Of a stretch of DNA of 32,341 bases, positions 18,062 to 27,167 are shown piece after piece. This DNA comes from Aneurinibacillus sp. (GTDB lineage Bacteria > Bacillota > UBA5301 > DYFA01): positions 1 to 32,341 of the forward strand of contig DYFA01000072.1 of the NCBI GenBank assembly GCA_020725425.1, written 5' to 3'. The stretch's first letter is position 1, and every line of letters starts with the position of its first letter. Made by a program: the position numbers and the translations under genes. Under the pieces are notes generated by a model. It ran no database searches. It was not told the DNA's origin and saw only the letters and a program-made list of their open reading frames with translations.

Positions 18062-19351
18062 GTGGAGCGACTGTTGGTGGTGGGTGGACGAAGGTTGTCC
18101 GGGCAGGTGGTGGCGGCCGGCGCGAAGAACTCGGCGCTCCCCCTGATTGCCGCCTCCCTCCTGACCGAGGAGGCTTGCCTTCTGGACAGGGTGCCCCAGA
18201 TCCGGGACGTCTCCACCATGCTTCGGGTGGTCGAAGCGCTCGGGTGCACGGCGCGGTGGGAAGACGAACACGTCCTGTGGCTCAAGAGCGGGGCTTACCT
18301 CGCCCCACAGCCACCGGCCGACCTGGTGCGGGAGATGCGAGCCTCGGTGCAGGTGGTGGGGCCGCTCCTGGGGCGGTGCGGGGCGGCCACCATCACCACG
18401 CCGGGCGGCTGCGCCATCGGCCCTCGGCCGATCAACCTTCACGTTCAAGGGCTCCGGGCGATGGGCGCCAAGGTTGAGGAGGACGGAGCGGTCATTCACT
18501 TCCGGGCTGACCGGCTGCACGGGGCGGACATCCTGCTCGACTATCCCAGCGTGGGCGCGACGGAAAACCTGATGATGGCGGCCTGTCTGGCCGATGGCCG
18601 GACCTTCATCCGCAACGCCGCCCGGGAACCGGAAATTGTCGATTTGCAGAGCCTTCTGAACCAGATGGGGGCCCGGGTCCGGGGCGCCGGCACGGACGTG
18701 GTCCGGGTGGACGGCGTGAGCCGCCTCCGCGGCGCCCACCACGTGGTGATTCCCGATCGCATCGAGGTTGGGACGTATCTCGCCGCCGCCGCCATCACGC
18801 GGGGCGACGTGACCGTGACCGACGTGATCCCCCAACACTGCGAGGCCACTCTGGCCAAACTGGCGGAAATGGGAGCCGAGGTCAGCCGCGCCGAGAGCGC
18901 CGTGCGGGTGAAGGCGGGGTGGAGACTGCGCGGGACCACCATCCGCGCCCTGCCCTACCCGGGCTTCCCCACCGACCTTCAACCCCAGTTGACCTCGGTG
19001 GCGTGCCTGGCCGAGGGGGTCAGCTTCGTGCAGGAGGAAGTCTTCGCCAGCCGCTTCAAGCACGTGGAGGAGCTGGTGAGGATGGGGGCGGACATCCGGG
19101 TCGAGGGCCGGGTGGCGATCGTGCAAGGGGTGGATTACCTGACCGGCACGACCATCCACGCCCCCGACCTGCGCGCCGGCGCGGCACTGGTCCTGGCGGC
19201 CCTGGCGGCCCGGGGGGAATCCATAGTGGAGGGCGCCCACCACCTGGACCGGGGCTATGAGAACCTACCCGGCAAGCTGGCCGCCCTGGGGGCGGAGGTC
19301 CGGGCTTTCCCGGCCGCCGGCGGCCATCACACAACCCGCGTGACCGCCTGA
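18062..19351 (+). CDS. murA: UDP-GlcNAc 1-carboxyvinyltransferase MurA
   Basis: First committed step of peptidoglycan synthesis, transferring enolpyruvate from PEP. The 429-residue product shows AGAKNSALPLIAA, the catalytic loop GGCAIGPRPINLH with Cys117 (the fosfomycin target residue is kept), SVGATENLMMAA, EPEIVDLQ, IPDRIEVGTYL, PGFPTDLQPQ and DLRAGAALV. GTG at 18062 lies 25 bases after murB. A Bacillota genome often has two murA copies; this is the dcw-linked one. Confidence 0.97.
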   Translation: MERLLVVGGRRLSGQVVAAGAKNSALPLIAASLLTEEACLLDRVPQIRDVSTMLRVVEALGCTARWEDEHVLWLKSGAYLAPQPPADLVREMRASVQVVGPLLGRCGAATITTPGGCAIGPRPINLHVQGLRAMGAKVEEDGAVIHFRADRLHGADILLDYPSVGATENLMMAACLADGRTFIRNAAREPEIVDLQSLLNQMGARVRGAGTDVVRVDGVSRLRGAHHVVIPDRIEVGTYLAAAAITRGDVTVTDVIPQHCEATLAKLAEMGAEVSRAESAVRVKAGWRLRGTTIRALPYPGFPTDLQPQLTSVACLAEGVSFVQEEVFASRFKHVEELVRMGADIRVEGRVAIVQGVDYLTGTTIHAPDLRAGAALVLAALAARGESIVEGAHHLDRGYENLPGKLAALGAEVRAFPAAGGHHTTRVTA

Positions 19352-19379
19352 GATTGTGATTTTCCCGCCCGCGACAGCA

Positions 19380-19388
19380 TGCTATAAT
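19380..19388 (+). promoter_or_regulatory. Extended -10 promoter for ftsQ and downstream genes
   Basis: TGCTATAAT is a perfect extended -10 (TGN-TATAAT). The -35 position is weak (TTTTCC around 19360), as tolerated with an extended -10. The start point would fall near 19395, just before AGGAGG (19401-19406). It would allow ftsQ to ftsZ to be transcribed apart from the mur genes. Confidence 0.6.
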
Positions 19389-19412
19389 ATTGCCGCGGGA
19401 AGGAGGACCAAG

Positions 19413-20165
19413 GTGACTGCGGACAAGAAGCCGCAGGTACTTTTTTTATGGCTGCTCCTGGTGGTGGCGGGCGGCCTGGGCCTCAGCCAGTCCGCCTACT
19501 TCACCGTGCAGGCGGTGCATGTCGCGGGCCTTCGCCAGTTGAAGCGGGAGGAGGTCCTGTCGGTCGCTGGGATCAGCCTGCCGGCCAACGTCTTCGCCCT
19601 GAATCCCCGCGTGATCCAGGCCAGGCTGGCCGAGTACCCGCCGGTGGCCAAGGCCAGGGTGGTCCGCCGCTTTCCGGCTGAGCTCCGGATCGAGCTGGTG
19701 GAGCGGGAGGCGGTCGGGGCGCTGCCGTACGGGGAGCACTTCCTGCTGTTCGACGGCGCCGGAGTGCCGTTTGCGATCCGGCAGGCGTCGGGGGCCCGGA
19801 GCCTGCCGAAGGTGACCGGCTGCCGCCTGACCCCGGTCCGGCTGGGGAAGCCGGCCCGGGGAGAAGACCTGCGCTGGGTGGCGGCGGTGCTTCAGAGCTT
19901 GCCTCGACCGCTTTACCAGCGCCTGTCGCAGGTGGAGGTCGGCCGGGGCCTGACGCTGACCCTGGTGACGGAGGACGGCGTCCGCGCCTTGTTGGGCTCG
20001 CGGGAGCAGATCGAGCGGAAGCTGGGCCTGCTCCAGTCGATCCTGGCGGAAGCGGAGACTAACGGCTGGCTGGTGAGGGAGATCGACGTGCGTAACCCGG
20101 AGCGGCCGTTCCTGCGACAGGGCGGGGAAAACGCCGGAGAGTCCCGGGGGGAGAGTGGACGATGA
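19413..20165 (+). CDS. ftsQ: Cell division protein FtsQ/DivIB
   Basis: Bitopic septal protein that scaffolds FtsL/DivIC. The 250-residue product has one membrane span near residues 9-28, a POTRA domain (YFTVQAVHVAGLRQLKREEVL, then PPVAKARVVRRFPAELRIELVER) and the beta domain ending near VREIDVRNPERPFLR. GTG at 19413 follows AGGAGG by 6 bases; the longer in-frame start at 19356 lies upstream of the promoter and is rejected. It overlaps the next gene by 4 bases (ATGA). Confidence 0.92.
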   Translation: MTADKKPQVLFLWLLLVVAGGLGLSQSAYFTVQAVHVAGLRQLKREEVLSVAGISLPANVFALNPRVIQARLAEYPPVAKARVVRRFPAELRIELVEREAVGALPYGEHFLLFDGAGVPFAIRQASGARSLPKVTGCRLTPVRLGKPARGEDLRWVAAVLQSLPRPLYQRLSQVEVGRGLTLTLVTEDGVRALLGSREQIERKLGLLQSILAEAETNGWLVREIDVRNPERPFLRQGGENAGESRGESGR

Positions 20166-20893
20166 ACCGCAAGAAGTGGCAGGTCTCGGTCAGCCTTGTC
20201 TGCTTGGTCCTCGGGGTCCTGTTGGCCGTCCAGTTCCGCACCCAGAGTGCCAAGGAGCGCCTCCCGGCCGGCAATTCCGAGCTCTTGGTCCGGCTCTACA
20301 ACGAGGCCAAGGCGCAGGAGGCAGCGCTGGCCCACGAGGTGGAGACGCTCCGGGCGGAGCTGCGTCAGGCCGGCGAAGGGAAAAGCGTGCTCAGGGGGTT
20401 GAACTCCGAGTTGAGGAAGGCGCTTCTCCTCGCGGGCACCACCAAGGTTGCCGGGCCGGGCATCCAGATCACCCTGGAGAGCCCGGTGGCGGGGCGTAGG
20501 CAAAGTAAAGAGGAGCTCTTCCTGGTGCACGACGAGGACCTGCTGAACGTGGTCAACGAGCTGGTGGCGGCCGGGGCGGAGGCCATCGCCATCAACGGGG
20601 AGCGGCGGGTCGCCTTGACCGAGATCCGCCGGGCCGGAGCCCTCATCTCGGTGAACAACCGCAGCACCGGTGAGCCGTTCGTGATCAAGGCGATCGGCGA
20701 CCCGGAGAACCTGCTCCGGTCGCTGGAGATCCGGGGAGGGGTGCTGGACTCCCTGCGCGCCTGGGGGATCAACGTCACCGTTCAGCCGGTGAAGGAACTG
20801 TTGCTTCCAGCCTACCGGCCCGCGGCCGCCCCGGCCGCGGCCTCCCCCGGACCCGGAAAGGGCCGCGACGGCGAGGGGGCGGTGGAGCTGTGA
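20162..20893 (+). CDS. DUF881 family protein (first copy)
   Basis: Membrane-anchored protein of unknown function often found between ftsQ and ftsA/Z in Firmicutes. The 243-residue product has an N-terminal span (VSVSLVCLVLGVLLAVQF), a coiled coil at about 40-75, then the DUF881 core: VAGPGIQITLES, VHDEDLLNVVNELVAAGAEAIAING and PFVIKAIGDPENLLRSLEIRGG. An Ala/Pro-rich tail of about 20 residues ends the protein. It overlaps the second copy by 4 bases. Confidence 0.92.
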   Translation: MNRKKWQVSVSLVCLVLGVLLAVQFRTQSAKERLPAGNSELLVRLYNEAKAQEAALAHEVETLRAELRQAGEGKSVLRGLNSELRKALLLAGTTKVAGPGIQITLESPVAGRRQSKEELFLVHDEDLLNVVNELVAAGAEAIAINGERRVALTEIRRAGALISVNNRSTGEPFVIKAIGDPENLLRSLEIRGGVLDSLRAWGINVTVQPVKELLLPAYRPAAAPAAASPGPGKGRDGEGAVEL

Positions 20894-21618
20894 AAAGCCC
20901 GCGGCCGTGGGAAGTCACCGCCGCTCTCATCTGCCTTATCCTAGGCTTGCTGATGGTGGTCCAGTTCCGCACCCAGTCCCAGAAGACGCGGCTCTCGACC
21001 GCCCGGTCGGAGGTCCTGCTCAATCTATACGAGGAGACCGAGGCCCACCGCCGTTCGCTGGAGCGGGAGGTGGCGGTGCTCCGGATGGAGCTTGCCAAGG
21101 CAGCGGAGGGGCGAACCCTCCTGGCCGGCCTGACCAAGGCGGTCGCCGAGGCGCGGGAGCAGGCCGGGCTGACCGAGCTCGTGGGCCCAGGCATCATCGT
21201 GACCCTCAACGACAGCGAACGGGAGGCCCGCCCCGGCCAGGACCAGGGCCTGTACGTGATTCACGACGAGGACCTGCTCCTGGTCATCAACGAGCTGCTG
21301 GCCGGTGGAGCGGAAGGCCTCTCAGTCAACGGCCAGCGGTGGACGTCCCGCACCGAGATTCGCTGCGCCGGCCCAACCGCCTCGATCAACCGGACGCGGG
21401 TCGGGGCGCCCTTCGTAATCCGGGCCGTCGGCGACCCCGACACGCTGGAGAGCGCGATGCGGCTGCGCGGAGGTGTCCTGGACGCTCTCCGAACCTGGGG
21501 GATCCGAGTGCGGATCGAGCGGTCGGAGCGGATGGTGCTGCCCGAGTACACGGGGAGCCTGGAGTACGAGTACGCGCGCCCGGTGGACATGGCCTCCGGC
21601 GCCGAGAGGAGCGAGTAG
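20890..21618 (+). CDS. DUF881 family protein (second copy)
   Basis: A tandem paralogue of the preceding gene, 242 residues, with the same plan: membrane span (LICLILGLLMVVQFRTQSQ), coiled coil, and core blocks VGPGIIVTLND, VIHDEDLLLVINELLAGGAEGLSVNGQR and PFVIRAVGDPDTLESAMRLRGGVLDALRTWGI. The tail is acidic and aromatic (LEYEYARP) instead of Pro-rich, so the two probably have distinct partners. GTG start overlaps the first copy's stop. Confidence 0.92.
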   Translation: MKSPRPWEVTAALICLILGLLMVVQFRTQSQKTRLSTARSEVLLNLYEETEAHRRSLEREVAVLRMELAKAAEGRTLLAGLTKAVAEAREQAGLTELVGPGIIVTLNDSEREARPGQDQGLYVIHDEDLLLVINELLAGGAEGLSVNGQRWTSRTEIRCAGPTASINRTRVGAPFVIRAVGDPDTLESAMRLRGGVLDALRTWGIRVRIERSERMVLPEYTGSLEYEYARPVDMASGAERSE

Positions 21619-21620
21619 CG

Positions 21621-21986
21621 ATGTGGTTGCCGTTGCTCGGTTTGGCGCTCGGCATCGTGATCGGGATGTCGTCGCCGATCATCCTGCCGGTTGGTTACGC
21701 CAACTACATGGCAATCGCCATCCTGGCCGCGCTGGATTCGGTCTTCGGCGGCCTGCGGGCGGGGCTTGAGGAGAAGTACGATAACACTGTCTTCATCAGC
21801 GGTTTCTTCCTCAACATCGTCGCCGCCACTCTCCTGACCTATCTCGGGACCAAGCTGGGGGTGGACCTGATCCTCGGGGCGACTGTGGCGTTCAGCATCC
21901 GCATCTTTACCAACCTGGGCATCATCCGCCGCCACCTCCTGGACAGGTGGCGCAACCGTCCGAGCAAGGGGAAGAGCGCCGTCTAA
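21621..21986 (+). CDS. sbp: Small basic protein Sbp (DUF1290)
   Basis: The 121-residue membrane protein has about three spans. LGLALGIVIGMSS, YMAIAILAALDSVFGGLRAGLEEKYDN and GATVAFSIRIFTNLGIIRRHLL are the conserved DUF1290/Sbp blocks. It is regularly found just before ftsA in Bacillota, and its function is unknown. ATG at 21621 follows GAGGAG. Last gene before the ftsA leader hairpin. Confidence 0.92.
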   Translation: MWLPLLGLALGIVIGMSSPIILPVGYANYMAIAILAALDSVFGGLRAGLEEKYDNTVFISGFFLNIVAATLLTYLGTKLGVDLILGATVAFSIRIFTNLGIIRRHLLDRWRNRPSKGKSAV

Positions 21987-22000
21987 ATTTGCAGTGGAAG

Positions 22001-22058
22001 AGGAAAGGCCTCCCGCCCGTCGAATATGAAGCCTAGTATTCCGCCGGGAGGTCTTCCT
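22001..22058 (+). promoter_or_regulatory. Leader hairpin sequestering the ftsA ribosome-binding site
   Basis: AGGAAAGGCCTCCCG (22001-22015) pairs with CGGGAGGTCTTCCT (22045-22058) to give about 14 bp with one G-U pair and one bulged A. Inside the 29-base loop, GAATA (22022-22026) and TATTC (22037-22041) form a further stem. The 3' arm contains GGGAGGT (22046-22052), the only ribosome-binding site for the TTG start at 22061. No T-run follows, so it is not a terminator. Confidence 0.65.
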
Positions 22059-22060
22059 GC

Positions 22061-23338
22061 TTGCCCGAGCGACGGCTCATCACCGGGTTGGACGTGGGGA
22101 CCTCGAAGGTCTGCGCCATCATCGCCGAGGCGCATCCCTCGGGTCAACTGGACGTGCTCGGCTTTGGCGCGAGCCCCTCGCACGGTTTGCGCAAGGGCAT
22201 GGTAGTCGACCTGGAGCGGACGTCCGAGGCTATCGGCGAGGCCGTGGCGCAGGCGGAGCGGATGGCCGGCGCCGAGGTTCACCAGGTCTTCCTGGGAATC
22301 GCCGGCGGGCACATCGCCTCTCTGAACAGCCACGGAGTCGTGGCCGTTTCCCGGCCCGACTGGGAGATCACCCAGAGCGACGTCGGGCGCGCCGTGGAAG
22401 CCGCCCGGGCGGTCGCTCTGCCGGGCGACCGGCAAGTGATTCACGTCCTTCCCCGGGAGTTCGTAGTTGACGGCTGTCGCGGCATCCGGGACCCGGTGGG
22501 GATGTCCGGGGTTCGCCTGGAGGTTTACGTTCACATCGTCACCGGAGCGGTCACGGCGCTCCGCAACATGGTCAAGTGTGTGGAGCGGACCGGCCTCCAG
22601 GTGGCGGACATGATCCTGCAACCCCTGGCCTCAGCCGAGGCGGTGCTGGCGCCTGAGGAGCGCTACGGAAGCTGCGTGCTGGTGGACATCGGTGCCGGCA
22701 CCACGGATGTGGCCGTCTTCCACGAGGGGAGCATCTGGCACACCGCCGTGCTGGCCGTCGGTGGGAACCACGTCACCTCTGATCTCTCCTACGGCCTGCG
22801 TTTGCCGTGGGCGGAGGCGGAGCGCCTGAAGATCAATCACGGGCGGCCGCCGGTCCTCCCCGGCCTGGAAGCGGCGGGACAGGCCGCGGCAGCCGCTTAC
22901 CCCGGCTCCGGGAGCGGGCCCGCGGCTTGGCTGGCGGGAGCGGCCGAGGGATCTCCGGGGACCCTCGACCCGGCGTTCATCATCCGGGCGCGACTCGAGG
23001 AGATCCTTCAGCTGGTGGCGGACGAGGTGAAACGGGTGCCCCACCCGACCTTTGTTCCGGCGGGGGCAGTGGTGACGGGCGGCTCGTCCCAACTGGGCGG
23101 GCTGCTCGAGGTCGGCCGGCGGGTGCTGGGCCTTCCCATGCGCATCGGAATGCCCGAGAGGCTGGGAGGACTGCCGGACTTCGTCGCCAACCCCGCTTAC
23201 GCCACAGGCGTAGGGCTCGCTCTGTACGGCCGGCGGATCAATGCCGGAGCGCCGGCGGCGCCGCGCCGGGGGGACCGGCTGAAGACCGGGTTGGTCGGGC
23301 TCATTCGCCGGTGGTTCGGAGAGTTCTTTGCCGAGTAG
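22061..23338 (+). CDS. ftsA: Cell division protein FtsA
   Basis: Actin-like membrane tether for FtsZ. The 425-residue product opens with ITGLDVGTSKVCAII (phosphate 1), has the 1C subdomain (SHGVVAVSRPDWEITQSDV), VLVDIGAGTTDVAVF (phosphate 2) and VVTGGSSQLGGL (adenosine motif), and ends in an amphipathic helix (GLVGLIRRWFGEFF) for membrane binding. A Gly/Ala/Pro-rich insertion at about residues 268-300 is unusual. The start is TTG, 8 bases after a ribosome-binding site buried in a hairpin, so translation is probably kept low relative to ftsZ. Confidence 0.95.
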   Translation: MPERRLITGLDVGTSKVCAIIAEAHPSGQLDVLGFGASPSHGLRKGMVVDLERTSEAIGEAVAQAERMAGAEVHQVFLGIAGGHIASLNSHGVVAVSRPDWEITQSDVGRAVEAARAVALPGDRQVIHVLPREFVVDGCRGIRDPVGMSGVRLEVYVHIVTGAVTALRNMVKCVERTGLQVADMILQPLASAEAVLAPEERYGSCVLVDIGAGTTDVAVFHEGSIWHTAVLAVGGNHVTSDLSYGLRLPWAEAERLKINHGRPPVLPGLEAAGQAAAAAYPGSGSGPAAWLAGAAEGSPGTLDPAFIIRARLEEILQLVADEVKRVPHPTFVPAGAVVTGGSSQLGGLLEVGRRVLGLPMRIGMPERLGGLPDFVANPAYATGVGLALYGRRINAGAPAAPRRGDRLKTGLVGLIRRWFGEFFAE

Positions 23339-23389
23339 AGGTTGCCGGGAGATTCGCCAAGACAGCGTAGGCAAGGAGGAGCGTCGCCC

Positions 23390-24436
23390 ATGTTCGAGTT
23401 GGATGTAGAGACGGATCAACTGGCCAACATCAAGGTGGTCGGAATCGGGGGTGGAGGGTCCAACGCCGTCAACCGGATGATTGCGGCCGGGCTCACCGGG
23501 GTCGAGTTTCTGGCCATGAACACCGACGCTCAGGCGCTCCAGTGCTCCCGGGCCACCCACCGGCTCCAGATTGGCGAGAATCTCACCAAGGGGCTCGGAG
23601 CAGGGTCGAACCCGGATATCGGCCGGGACGCCGCCGAGGAGAGCCAGGAGGACATTCGCCGGTGTCTGGCCGGGGCGGACATGGTTTTCATCACCGCTGG
23701 CATGGGTGGCGGGACGGGCACGGGTGCTGCTCCGACCGTCGCCAAGCTGGCTCGGGAGCTTGGCGCCCTGACGGTGGCCGTGGTGACGAGGCCGTTCACC
23801 TTTGAGGGACGCCGCCGCCAACAGCAGGCGGAGGTAGGGGTCAACGCCCTCCGGGCTCACGTGGATACGCTGATCACCATCCCCAACGACCGGCTGCTCA
23901 CCGTCGTGGATAAGCGAACCCCCGTTCTCGAAGCCTTCCGGGTGGCGGACGACGTCCTGCGCCAGGGGGTGCAGGGCATCTCCGACCTGATCACCGTACC
24001 GGGTCTGATCAACCTGGACTTCGCCGACGTCCGGACGATCATGATGGACGCCGGCAGCGCCTTGATGGGCATCGGCATCGCCTCGGGCGAGGACCGCGCC
24101 GCGACGGCGGCCCGGGCGGCGATCTCCAGCCCCCTCTTGGAAGCCTCGATCGAAGGAGCGCGGGGAGTTCTGCTGAACATCACCGGCGGGGCCGACCTGG
24201 GACTGCACGAAGTGAACGAGGCGGCGGAAATCGTGGCCTCCTGCGCCGACGCGGACGCCAACATCATCTTTGGAGCGGTGATCGACGAGAAGCTGAAGGA
24301 CGAGGTGCGGGTGACCGTCATCGCCACTGGCTTCGAAGGCCCCAAGGCGGCAGAGAAGAAGGTCGAGGAGCTCGAAATCAAGCCCTTCGCCTCCAGCGAT
24401 GACCTGGACATTCCCGCTTTCCTCCGCCGCAAGTAG
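23390..24436 (+). CDS. ftsZ: Cell division GTPase FtsZ
   Basis: Tubulin-like GTPase forming the Z ring. The 348-residue product shows [16 protein letters not shown], the tubulin signature GGGTGTGAA (106-114), NDRLL, and the T7 loop [12 protein letters not shown] short linker leads to the C-terminal peptide [12 protein letters not shown], which binds FtsA. ATG at 23390 follows AAGGAGGAGC (23373-23382), a much stronger site than that of ftsA. A terminator-like hairpin follows. Confidence 0.98.
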
Positions 24437-25557: not shown

Positions 25558-26292
25558 ATGCACGCGGCCGTCCGACGCTGGACTCTGAGTCTGCGCCTCG
25601 CCGTCCTCCGGGCGCTTGCCCGGCTGGGGTGGCTGCCGCGTCCCCGCCTCTACTACGTCGGGACGAGCGAGGTGCTTCCCCCTCCGCTCACCAGCGAGGA
25701 GGAGGCCATCCTGTTGGGCCGGTTGAGCGCGGGCGACACGGCCGTCAAGGGGATCCTCATTGAGAGGAACCTCCGCCTGGTGGTGTACATCGCCCGTAAG
25801 TTCGACAACACCGGAGTCCATATCGAAGACCTGGTGTCCATCGGAACCATCGGGTTGATCAAGGCAGTCAACACCTTCGACCCCGAGAAGAGGATCAAGC
25901 TGGCGACGTATGCCTCCCGCTGTATCGAAAACGAGATCTTGATGTACCTCCGACGGAATAACAAGACCCGGGCCGAGGTGTCCTTCGACGAGCCGCTCAA
26001 CGTCGACTGGGACGGCAACGAACTCCTGCTCTCCGACGTCCTGGGAACGGAAACGGACATCATCTACAAGGACCTCGAGGAGACAGTGGACCGGAAACTC
26101 CTCGAGATCGCCCTGGACCGGCTTTCTCTGCGTGAGAAGCGCATCATGGAACTCCGCTTCGGGCTCAACGACGGGCAGGAAAAGACGCAGAAGGAAGTGG
26201 CCGACCTGCTCGGCATCTCCCAGTCCTACATCTCCCGCCTCGAAAAGCGCATCATCCGCAAGCTCCGCAAGGAGATCCGCCGGATGGAGTGA
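25558..26292 (+). CDS. sigE: RNA polymerase sporulation sigma factor SigE (pro-form)
   Basis: Mother-cell sigma factor made as an inactive precursor. The 244-residue product has a basic, amphipathic pro-sequence of about 30 residues up to [14 protein letters not shown], the conserved processing site. Region 2 follows ([45 protein letters not shown]) and region 4 ([19 protein letters not shown], then [13 protein letters not shown]). ATG at 25558 is set 5 bases after GGGAGGG; a GTG at 25552 would overlap that site. A strong terminator closes the spoIIGA-sigE operon. Confidence 0.96.
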
Positions 26293-26297
26293 ACCAC

Positions 26298-26328
26298 CCC
26301 CTACACAGGAGGCCCTCCCGGGTAGGGG
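26298..26328 (+). other. Hairpin directly after sigE
   Basis: CCCCTAC (26298-26304) and GTAGGGG (26322-26328) form a perfect stem; the interior can fold further as GGAG-GCC-CTCC. No T-run follows. It lies just upstream of the true terminator. Confidence 0.4.
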
Positions 26329-26354
26329 CTGTCCTATTGTGTGAACCCACCCTT

Positions 26355-26382
26355 AGGCAGGTTTACCTGTCTTATTTTTTTT
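26355..26382 (+). terminator. Intrinsic terminator of the spoIIGA-sigE operon
   Basis: AGGCAGG (26355-26361), loop TTTA, CCTGTCT (26366-26372, one G-U pair), then TATTTTTTTT (26373-26382). This is a textbook rho-independent terminator. It isolates the downstream L,D-transpeptidase from sigE. Confidence 0.88.
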
Positions 26383-26414
26383 GCCCCGGGAATCCTATGG
26401 GCGGAGGGTTGTCC

Positions 26415-27167
26415 GTGGCACGGGTCACCCGCTTCTCCCTGGCCGTAGCTTGGCTCGCCTGCCTGGCCTGGACGGCGGGAGGGCACGCCCTGGTTCCCGG
26501 AAAGCGAGGTTATCCCTGCGGGTGCCCGCGGCCGGCGACGGAGCGGGCACCGGTCGCCATGGCTCCGAAGAGCCTCTCCGGGAGGCAGCCCAGCCGGGTA
26601 CACGTGCTGATCGACCTCGAACGGCGCGAGCTCACTCTCTACTTTGACCACGTGCCGGTCCGGACCTACCCGGTGGCCGTCGGCAAACCGTCCACCCCGA
26701 CGCCGGTCGGAGACTGGCGGATCGTCGAGAAAGCCAAGTGGGGGGAGGGGTTCGGCTCCCGCTGGATGCAGATCTCGGTGCCCTGGGGCACTTACGGCAT
26801 CCACGGCACCAACAAGCCCTGGACGATCGGCGAGGCGGTTTCGGGGGGGTGCATCCGGATGTTCAACGAGGATGCCGACGAGGTGTACGAGTGGGTCAAG
26901 GTCGGCACCCCGGTCAAGATCATCGGTGACCCGCTGGCCCCTCTGGAGGAACGGCAAACGCTCGAGCCCGGCTACATGTCCTCCCGGGTGATGCTGGTCC
27001 AGCGAGCCTTGCGGGAGGCGGGATACTACGCGGGACCGCTCGACGGGGCATGGGGAGCGGCGTCGATCGCCGCGACCAAGGCTTTCCAGAAGGCCAAGGG
27101 GTTCCCGGTGACCGGGTCGTTCGACACGCTCTGCTACGACGCCCTCGGTTTAGTCCGGTTTGAATAA
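26415..27167 (+). CDS. Secreted L,D-transpeptidase (YkuD) with C-terminal peptidoglycan-binding domain
   Basis: Predicted to form 3-3 crosslinks or modify spore or cell-wall peptidoglycan outside the membrane. The 250-residue product has a signal peptide (residues 1-27, hydrophobic LAVAWLACLAWTAGG), a YkuD domain at about 60-170 with His130 (GIHGTNKP) and catalytic Cys146 in SGGCIRM, and a PG_binding_1 domain at about 185-245 (VQRALREAGYYAGPLDGAWG). GTG at 26415 is 6 bases after GGAGGG; an ATG at 26397 is a weaker choice. It sits between sigE and sigG, which are adjacent in Bacillus, and is cut off from sigE by a terminator. A cortex role under a sporulation sigma factor is inferred. Confidence 0.92.
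   Translation: MARVTRFSLAVAWLACLAWTAGGHALVPGKRGYPCGCPRPATERAPVAMAPKSLSGRQPSRVHVLIDLERRELTLYFDHVPVRTYPVAVGKPSTPTPVGDWRIVEKAKWGEGFGSRWMQISVPWGTYGIHGTNKPWTIGEAVSGGCIRMFNEDADEVYEWVKVGTPVKIIGDPLAPLEERQTLEPGYMSSRVMLVQRALREAGYYAGPLDGAWGAASIAATKAFQKAKGFPVTGSFDTLCYDALGLVRFE

Follow-up and report, generated by a model that had tools for sequence, protein, structure and literature searches.

In phage T4, the long early transcripts of gene e fold over the ribosome-binding site (RBS) and are silenced, and late promoters located in the DNA encoding the 5′ strand of this fold give transcripts that lack the strand and are well translated; the effect was measured and is 100-fold, as stated in the available part of the review describing it, where similar leaders are also mentioned as predicted in closely related T4-type phages (PMC3014915). 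For ftsAZ, the accessible portion of one source places a sigma-H site, linked to early sporulation, in the B. subtilis promoter region (PMC12421865, citing Gonzy-Treboul 1992). In C. difficile, promoters show the sigma-H consensus, and that of ftsZ reads AGGAAAA...GTGGAATAT, according to the excerpted text of a further study (PMC7438776).

The window, that is, the whole 32,341-nt stretch of DNA analyzed here, holds division and sporulation genes: a weak FtsQ match (32.8 bits, far below its cut-off), two DUF881 genes, sbp, ftsA and ftsZ. Profile searches further revealed a SpoIIGA homologue (below the strict NCBIfam cut-off, far above the Pfam cut-off), sigE, an L,D-transpeptidase, sigG and spoIIR, with sigE, sigG and spoIIR all above cut-off; judging from these genes, the host is probably a spore-forming bacterium of the Firmicutes type. 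sigH (TIGR02859, 371.5 bits; cut-off 294.8) and spoIIE (520.9 bits; cut-off 490.8) were both found in the genome. The L,D-transpeptidase, a YkuD protein with a peptidoglycan-binding domain (26289-27164), sits between sigE and sigG, which are direct neighbors in B. subtilis.

The gene upstream of ftsA is sbp (small basic protein, DUF1290; 21621-21986, + strand), which was assigned by PF06947 (E = 1.9e-34 on the frame 20907-21983, residues 261-345) with an ATG start read from the sequence and frame; an NCBIfam search of 21621-21983 gave no match. Its stop (21986) and the TTG start of ftsA (22061-22063) are separated by 74 nt. ftsA itself (22061-23338, + strand, 425 aa) matched TIGR01174 (380.6 bits; cut-off 175.85) as well as PF14450 and PF02491, and since an in-frame TAG lies at 22034-22036 and no start codon occurs between it and 22061, the TTG is the first possible start; the start residue is the same in three class relatives of family f5 (TTG, GTG and TTG). 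As the earlier note had read it, ftsZ (23390-24436, + strand; TIGR00065, 455 bits, cut-off 295.2, frame 23342-24433) has the Shine-Dalgarno sequence (SD) AAGGAGG at 23373-23379 and an ATG start at 23390. The computed cost of opening this SD is 1.6 kcal/mol.

A sigma-H promoter very probably lies before ftsAZ in the 74-nt gap. The motif, at 21999-22027, consists of a −35 element, AGAGGAAAG (21999-22007), a gap of 11 nt and a −10 element, GTCGAATAT (22019-22027), both on the + strand and identified from sequence, motif recurrence and consensus. The sigma-H consensus is RnAGGAWWW at −35 and RnnGAATWW at −10 with a spacing of 11-12 nt, and the site agrees with it, spacing included, its sole deviation being a G for the last W of the −35 element; compared with the motif RnAGGRWW-N10..13-RnnGAAW, it has no mismatch. 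Positions 22018-22024, in the −10 region, read CGTCGAA, one letter from the Spo0A box TGTCGAA; this is probably just the −10 element, because many relatives have GTTGAAT there.

Comparison of the same stretch in relatives revealed one common element, AGGAAA followed about 15 nt later by GAAT. The strict motif RnAGGRWW-N10..13-RnnGAAW occurred within 160 nt before ftsA in 64 of 90 upstream regions, the host's own included, versus a mean of 1.7 and a maximum of 4 across 20 shuffled sets; 81 of the 90 carried it when one mismatch was permitted, versus a shuffle mean of 20.9 and a maximum of 27. Over 250 nt, 89 upstream regions gave 68 strict matches versus 2 with reversed letters. The distance from AGGRWW to RNNGAAW was 12 in 57 and 13 in 9 of 66 strict-motif upstream regions, and the fixed-spacing form of the motif has 47 sites in the 2.38 Mb of the host's own genome. 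Among the six class members with ftsA, the strict motif is present in all except L005, where it carries one mismatch; in their alignment, several invariant columns coincide with the −35 and −10 letters. Across a wide sampling of the phylum, the sigma-H motif ahead of ftsAZ has been retained.

The sample comprised 91 upstream regions (L002, L005-L009, L029-L053 and L061-L120), namely 30 ftsA loci, the extra distant locus L029, and the next 60 places of the ranking of FtsA matches down to G252, with G316, the second place of G359, G282 and G089 skipped; L102 was dropped because of too little upstream DNA, which left 90 for the motif counts. All were picked before their sequence was seen, and the sample favors genomes with an FtsA like that of the host, some FtsA match being present in 389 of 398 genomes. 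The host's class is represented by 7 genomes including its own, 6 of them with a clear ftsA, and the class relatives compared are distant ones from other families.

Even with one mismatch, the motif was absent from L039, L046, L029, L092, L104, L114, L116, L118 and L120. Loss of sigma-H or of sporulation was rejected as the cause, because sigH and spoIIE were over cut-off in all 8 motif-less genomes searched; the motif is thus common, not universal, among probable sporulators. L114, L116, L118 and L120 (genomes G123, G364, G228 and G252) are four sampled members of one family; the ftsA sigma-H motif is missing from them, and sigH and spoIIE are kept. In total, sigH was over cut-off in 37 of 39 genomes and spoIIE in 15 of 20; the two genomes with sigH below cut-off, G003 (222.8 bits) and G036, both have the motif.

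Sequence and folding bore out the claim of the earlier note that a 14-bp hairpin locks the sole SD of ftsA ahead of its TTG start. The 5′ arm (22001-22015, + strand) overlaps the −35 element and the promoter spacer, and the 3′ arm (22045-22058, + strand) contains the whole of the only ftsA SD, GGGAGGT (22046-22052); the stem has 14 pairs, one of them G-U, with A22006 bulged. On top of it stands an inner stem-loop (22019-22044, + strand) of 8 pairs, in which the −10 element pairs with 22036-22044. The plain stability of this fold is ordinary in G+C-rich DNA, since an equally stable fold was seen in 15% of 3228 65-base windows; the leader has a folding z of −1.96, and 7 of 200 shuffles were as good. 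The position of the SD within the fold is what stands out: its modeled opening cost, about 16 (15.7-15.9) kcal/mol, is the highest of 173 SD-led starts (mean 4.0, SD of the distribution 2.5, ftsA included; next-highest 10.9), which were collected by a simple open-reading-frame and SD script from 15 stretches of the host's own genome including the window. The cost of opening the whole ribosome footprint is less extreme, with 5 of the 173 starts, ftsA included, at or above the ftsA value.

Sigma-H transcripts usually start 5-9 nt after the −10 element, which puts the predicted start at 22032-22036 (+ strand), inside the hairpin; transcripts from the sigma-H promoter would thus lack the 5′ arm, and only read-through RNA would form the stem. 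Folding of four lengths gave an SD opening cost of 14.5-17.4 kcal/mol for read-through RNA versus 6.0-10.0 kcal/mol for sigma-H transcripts, and the 30S footprint cost was 27-33 versus 14-19 kcal/mol in silico. In the short RNA, a weaker fold, formed partly with the first codons, covers the SD, which stays largely paired (unpaired 0.036 at 37 °C and 0.31 at 75 °C, and 0.06 in a separate calculation), and its cost is toward the high end of the values for other genes, whereas that of the long RNA lies outside their range. In these models the SD on the sigma-H transcript is relieved, not free. Read-through RNA into ftsA is plausible: a scan of 19300-23400 found no terminator between sbp and ftsA and no sigma-70-like promoter on the + strand. 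The same scan listed terminator-like sites at 19417-19436, 22505 and 23033 (3 versus 1.9 expected), of which 19417-19436, if real, could lower read-through. With 14 nt between the sbp stop and the 5′ arm, the stem would hardly be opened by a ribosome that terminates at this stop.

The leading reading of these folding results, to which we give an even chance, is a functional translation switch linked to the promoter. In this switch, the DNA of the sigma-H (Spo0H) promoter (−35, spacer and −10) is at the same time complementary to the SD region of ftsA. RNA reading through from the upstream division genes would carry the promoter as RNA, fold the 14-bp hairpin and hide the SD, and sigma-H-started RNA would begin within the hairpin, without the 5′ arm, and opening its SD would cost some 6-10 kcal/mol less. 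Both RNAs would serve to make FtsZ, whose gene has a strong SD of its own. Because sigma-H comes on at the onset of sporulation, FtsA would be raised twice, by more message and by better-translated message, and the arrangement would presumably be under selection. If this is true, one 60-nt stretch would couple the choice of sigma factor to division-protein translation at sporulation onset, and a phage timing strategy can arise in a bacterial operon through base changes in a promoter spacer. Besides the lack of conservation described below, one point against the switch is that growing cells would run short of FtsA if the read-through message were nearly silent, unless that message is leaky or another promoter acts.

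A real possibility, which we place somewhat below even, is that the sigma-H promoter alone is functional and that its G+C-rich spacer matches the SD by chance, as a neutral feature of this lineage with little effect, either because message from the upstream operon is scant or because the ribosome and helicases cope with the stem. The conservation data favor this explanation, since the promoter motif is conserved and the hairpin is not: among the class members and upstream regions compared, the strong hairpin was found in the host's own genome only. Pairing of the SD with RNA 5′ of the predicted start averaged 0.117 over 79 upstream regions, own included, versus 0.114 in shuffles, and 7 of the 79 were at 5% or below; the 79 are those of the 81 motif-bearing regions with a recognizable SD, the automatic choice of which is doubtful in some rows. 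The observed SD pairing was reached by none of 100 shuffles for the window, by 4 for the class relative L006 (pairing 0.66), which speaks for the switch, and by 35-94 for the other four class members. With hand-chosen SDs, the opening costs in the five other class members were 1.5, 6.1, 6.8, 2.4 and 7.8 versus 15.5 kcal/mol in the host. L006, L008 and L009, which belong to one family, have an SD followed immediately, just ahead of ftsA, by a short, wholly or partly complementary stretch, as in GGAGGGTCTCC; the two could pair into a very small hairpin that covers the SD.

The earlier note had named arms that vary without compensation in close relatives as the result that would speak against the hairpin, and essentially this pattern was seen over the six distant class members: the hairpin pairs were paired in 60.3% of cells versus 59.2% in shuffles, and covariation was 0.152 versus 0.149. 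The pairs did beat slid versions of themselves (35.8-47.1%), as is expected when a structure derives from one row of the alignment. A conserved RNA element was rejected, there being no match to an Rfam family at gathering score in the window, no covariation and no excess of SD burial in relatives. The conserved motif and the unconserved pairs together suggested an old promoter with a hairpin that is either recent or incidental; since the relatives are distant, from other families, the hairpin may be young and specific to the host's own lineage.

Two further results fit a chance match. Randomized upstream DNA reached the SD cost of ftsA in 2, 9 and 2 of 1000 cases (three designs), and these values, which stand without adjustment for the hairpin having been picked out of the whole window, are not tiny for a feature chosen in that way. 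The arrangement also failed to recur among other candidate sigma-H sites: of the 47 sites in the genome, 30 were looked at as loci, and none of the 11 other candidates that could be scored, those with a downstream SD start, showed it (long-RNA cost at most 5.5); an SD-hiding sigma-H promoter as a general strategy of this genome was rejected on these grounds. A chance match sits less well with the wide gap between ftsA and the next of the 173 starts (15.9 versus 10.9), and one would expect every RNA bearing a 14-bp stem across its SD to be affected by it.

We consider it improbable that the hairpin and the TTG are a constant brake, which would permanently keep FtsA scarce compared with FtsZ and involve no switching. 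Start codons, called by rough, uncurated SD-guided scripts, were TTG in 54, GTG in 23, ATG in 11 and CTG in 1 of the 91 ftsA upstream regions (no call in 2), versus ATG in 18, GTG in 7 and TTG in 5 of 30 ftsZ loci (ftsZ was located in 30 of 31). Non-ATG starts are thus widespread at ftsA and ftsZ starts mostly with ATG, so that low FtsA synthesis looks general, in line with a brake, as does the SD that stays largely folded even on the short RNA. However, the promoter lies inside the hairpin, and the two RNA forms would fold differently, which would make the brake unequal. The earlier note had proposed that the hairpin sets a low FtsA:FtsZ ratio; folding supports less translation on hairpin-bearing RNA, but the hairpin would belong to read-through RNA only, because its 5′ arm overlaps the conserved sigma-H motif. 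The TTG start that it had also named is confirmed and is separate from the hairpin; TTG, seen at 16 of the 173 scored starts in the host's own genome, is used by ftsA in 54 of the 91 regions. A weak ftsA start would be a widespread habit that keeps FtsA scarce, for which no link to the hairpin is needed. Regardless of the switch, the common TTG start fits a general need for scarce FtsA.

A thermosensor and a protein-bound leader, with FtsA or some other protein as the binder, go back to proposals of the earlier note; both are very unlikely. Such elements do generally carry the SD within a hairpin, and only uncatalogued types could apply, given the lack of an Rfam match; the six class members show no covariation, however, and what recurs among relatives is a promoter motif. 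The thermosensor is not supported by in-silico melting, in which the stem does not open in the growth range and the SD remains buried at 85 °C (unpaired 0.000 from 25 to 55 °C, 0.010 at 85 °C); an RNA thermometer was rejected on this basis. Least probable of all is that the stem, which is long, G+C-rich and intergenic, serves as a terminator or an RNase III-type cleavage site for upstream RNA and insulates ftsAZ; the hairpin was rejected as a terminator because no T-run follows the stem and the scan lists none there.

With the switch as the leading reading, the locus can be set beside the described systems. The B. subtilis ftsAZ operon, as far as the source available in part describes it, resembles the window in having a sigma-H site in its promoter region that is tied to early sporulation, and C. 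difficile ftsZ has, in the part of the study available, the same type of sigma-H element. The B. subtilis operon has further vegetative promoters, to which no consensus-like counterpart was found on the + strand of 19300-23400, and we know of no SD-hiding hairpin at B. subtilis ftsA. The transposase of IS10/Tn10 is shielded from read-through transcription by an RBS that is hidden only in RNA begun outside the element. The proposal for ftsA shares this feature; there, unlike here, it serves to keep a mobile element from being expressed by chance. A literature search, in which subscription journals were poorly covered and sources were seen in part, returned no described case of such a layout at ftsA or in bacterial operons, which is weak evidence of novelty.

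The likeness is closest to T4 gene e and to the I-TevI leader (td intron), where, as the available part of the review has it, promoter DNA likewise encodes the 5′ strand of a hairpin over the RBS. Two hallmarks of the gene e leader are found at ftsA in silico, namely a stable hairpin that carries the RBS in its 3′ arm and overlaps a promoter with its 5′ arm, and transcripts from the inner promoter that lack the 5′ arm and have a weaker fold over the RBS. A third, retention of the layout in relatives, was not found in the 5 class members or the 79 upstream regions compared; the T4-type layout is predicted in related phages, whereas that of ftsA occurs in one genome. The T4 effect was measured, whereas that at ftsA is predicted, and phage late promoters in T4 contrast with a sporulation sigma factor of the chromosome here. 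On the folding models, the ftsA leader may work like that of gene e, and we do not claim it as an established case. It is possible, although we hold it to be rather unlikely, that the gene e trick is used on a chromosome in development, with the sigma-H promoter of ftsAZ, as RNA, silencing ftsA in growth-phase read-through; if so, a change of sigma factor would alter how much message of a division gene there is and how well it is translated as the cell shifts from medial to polar septation.
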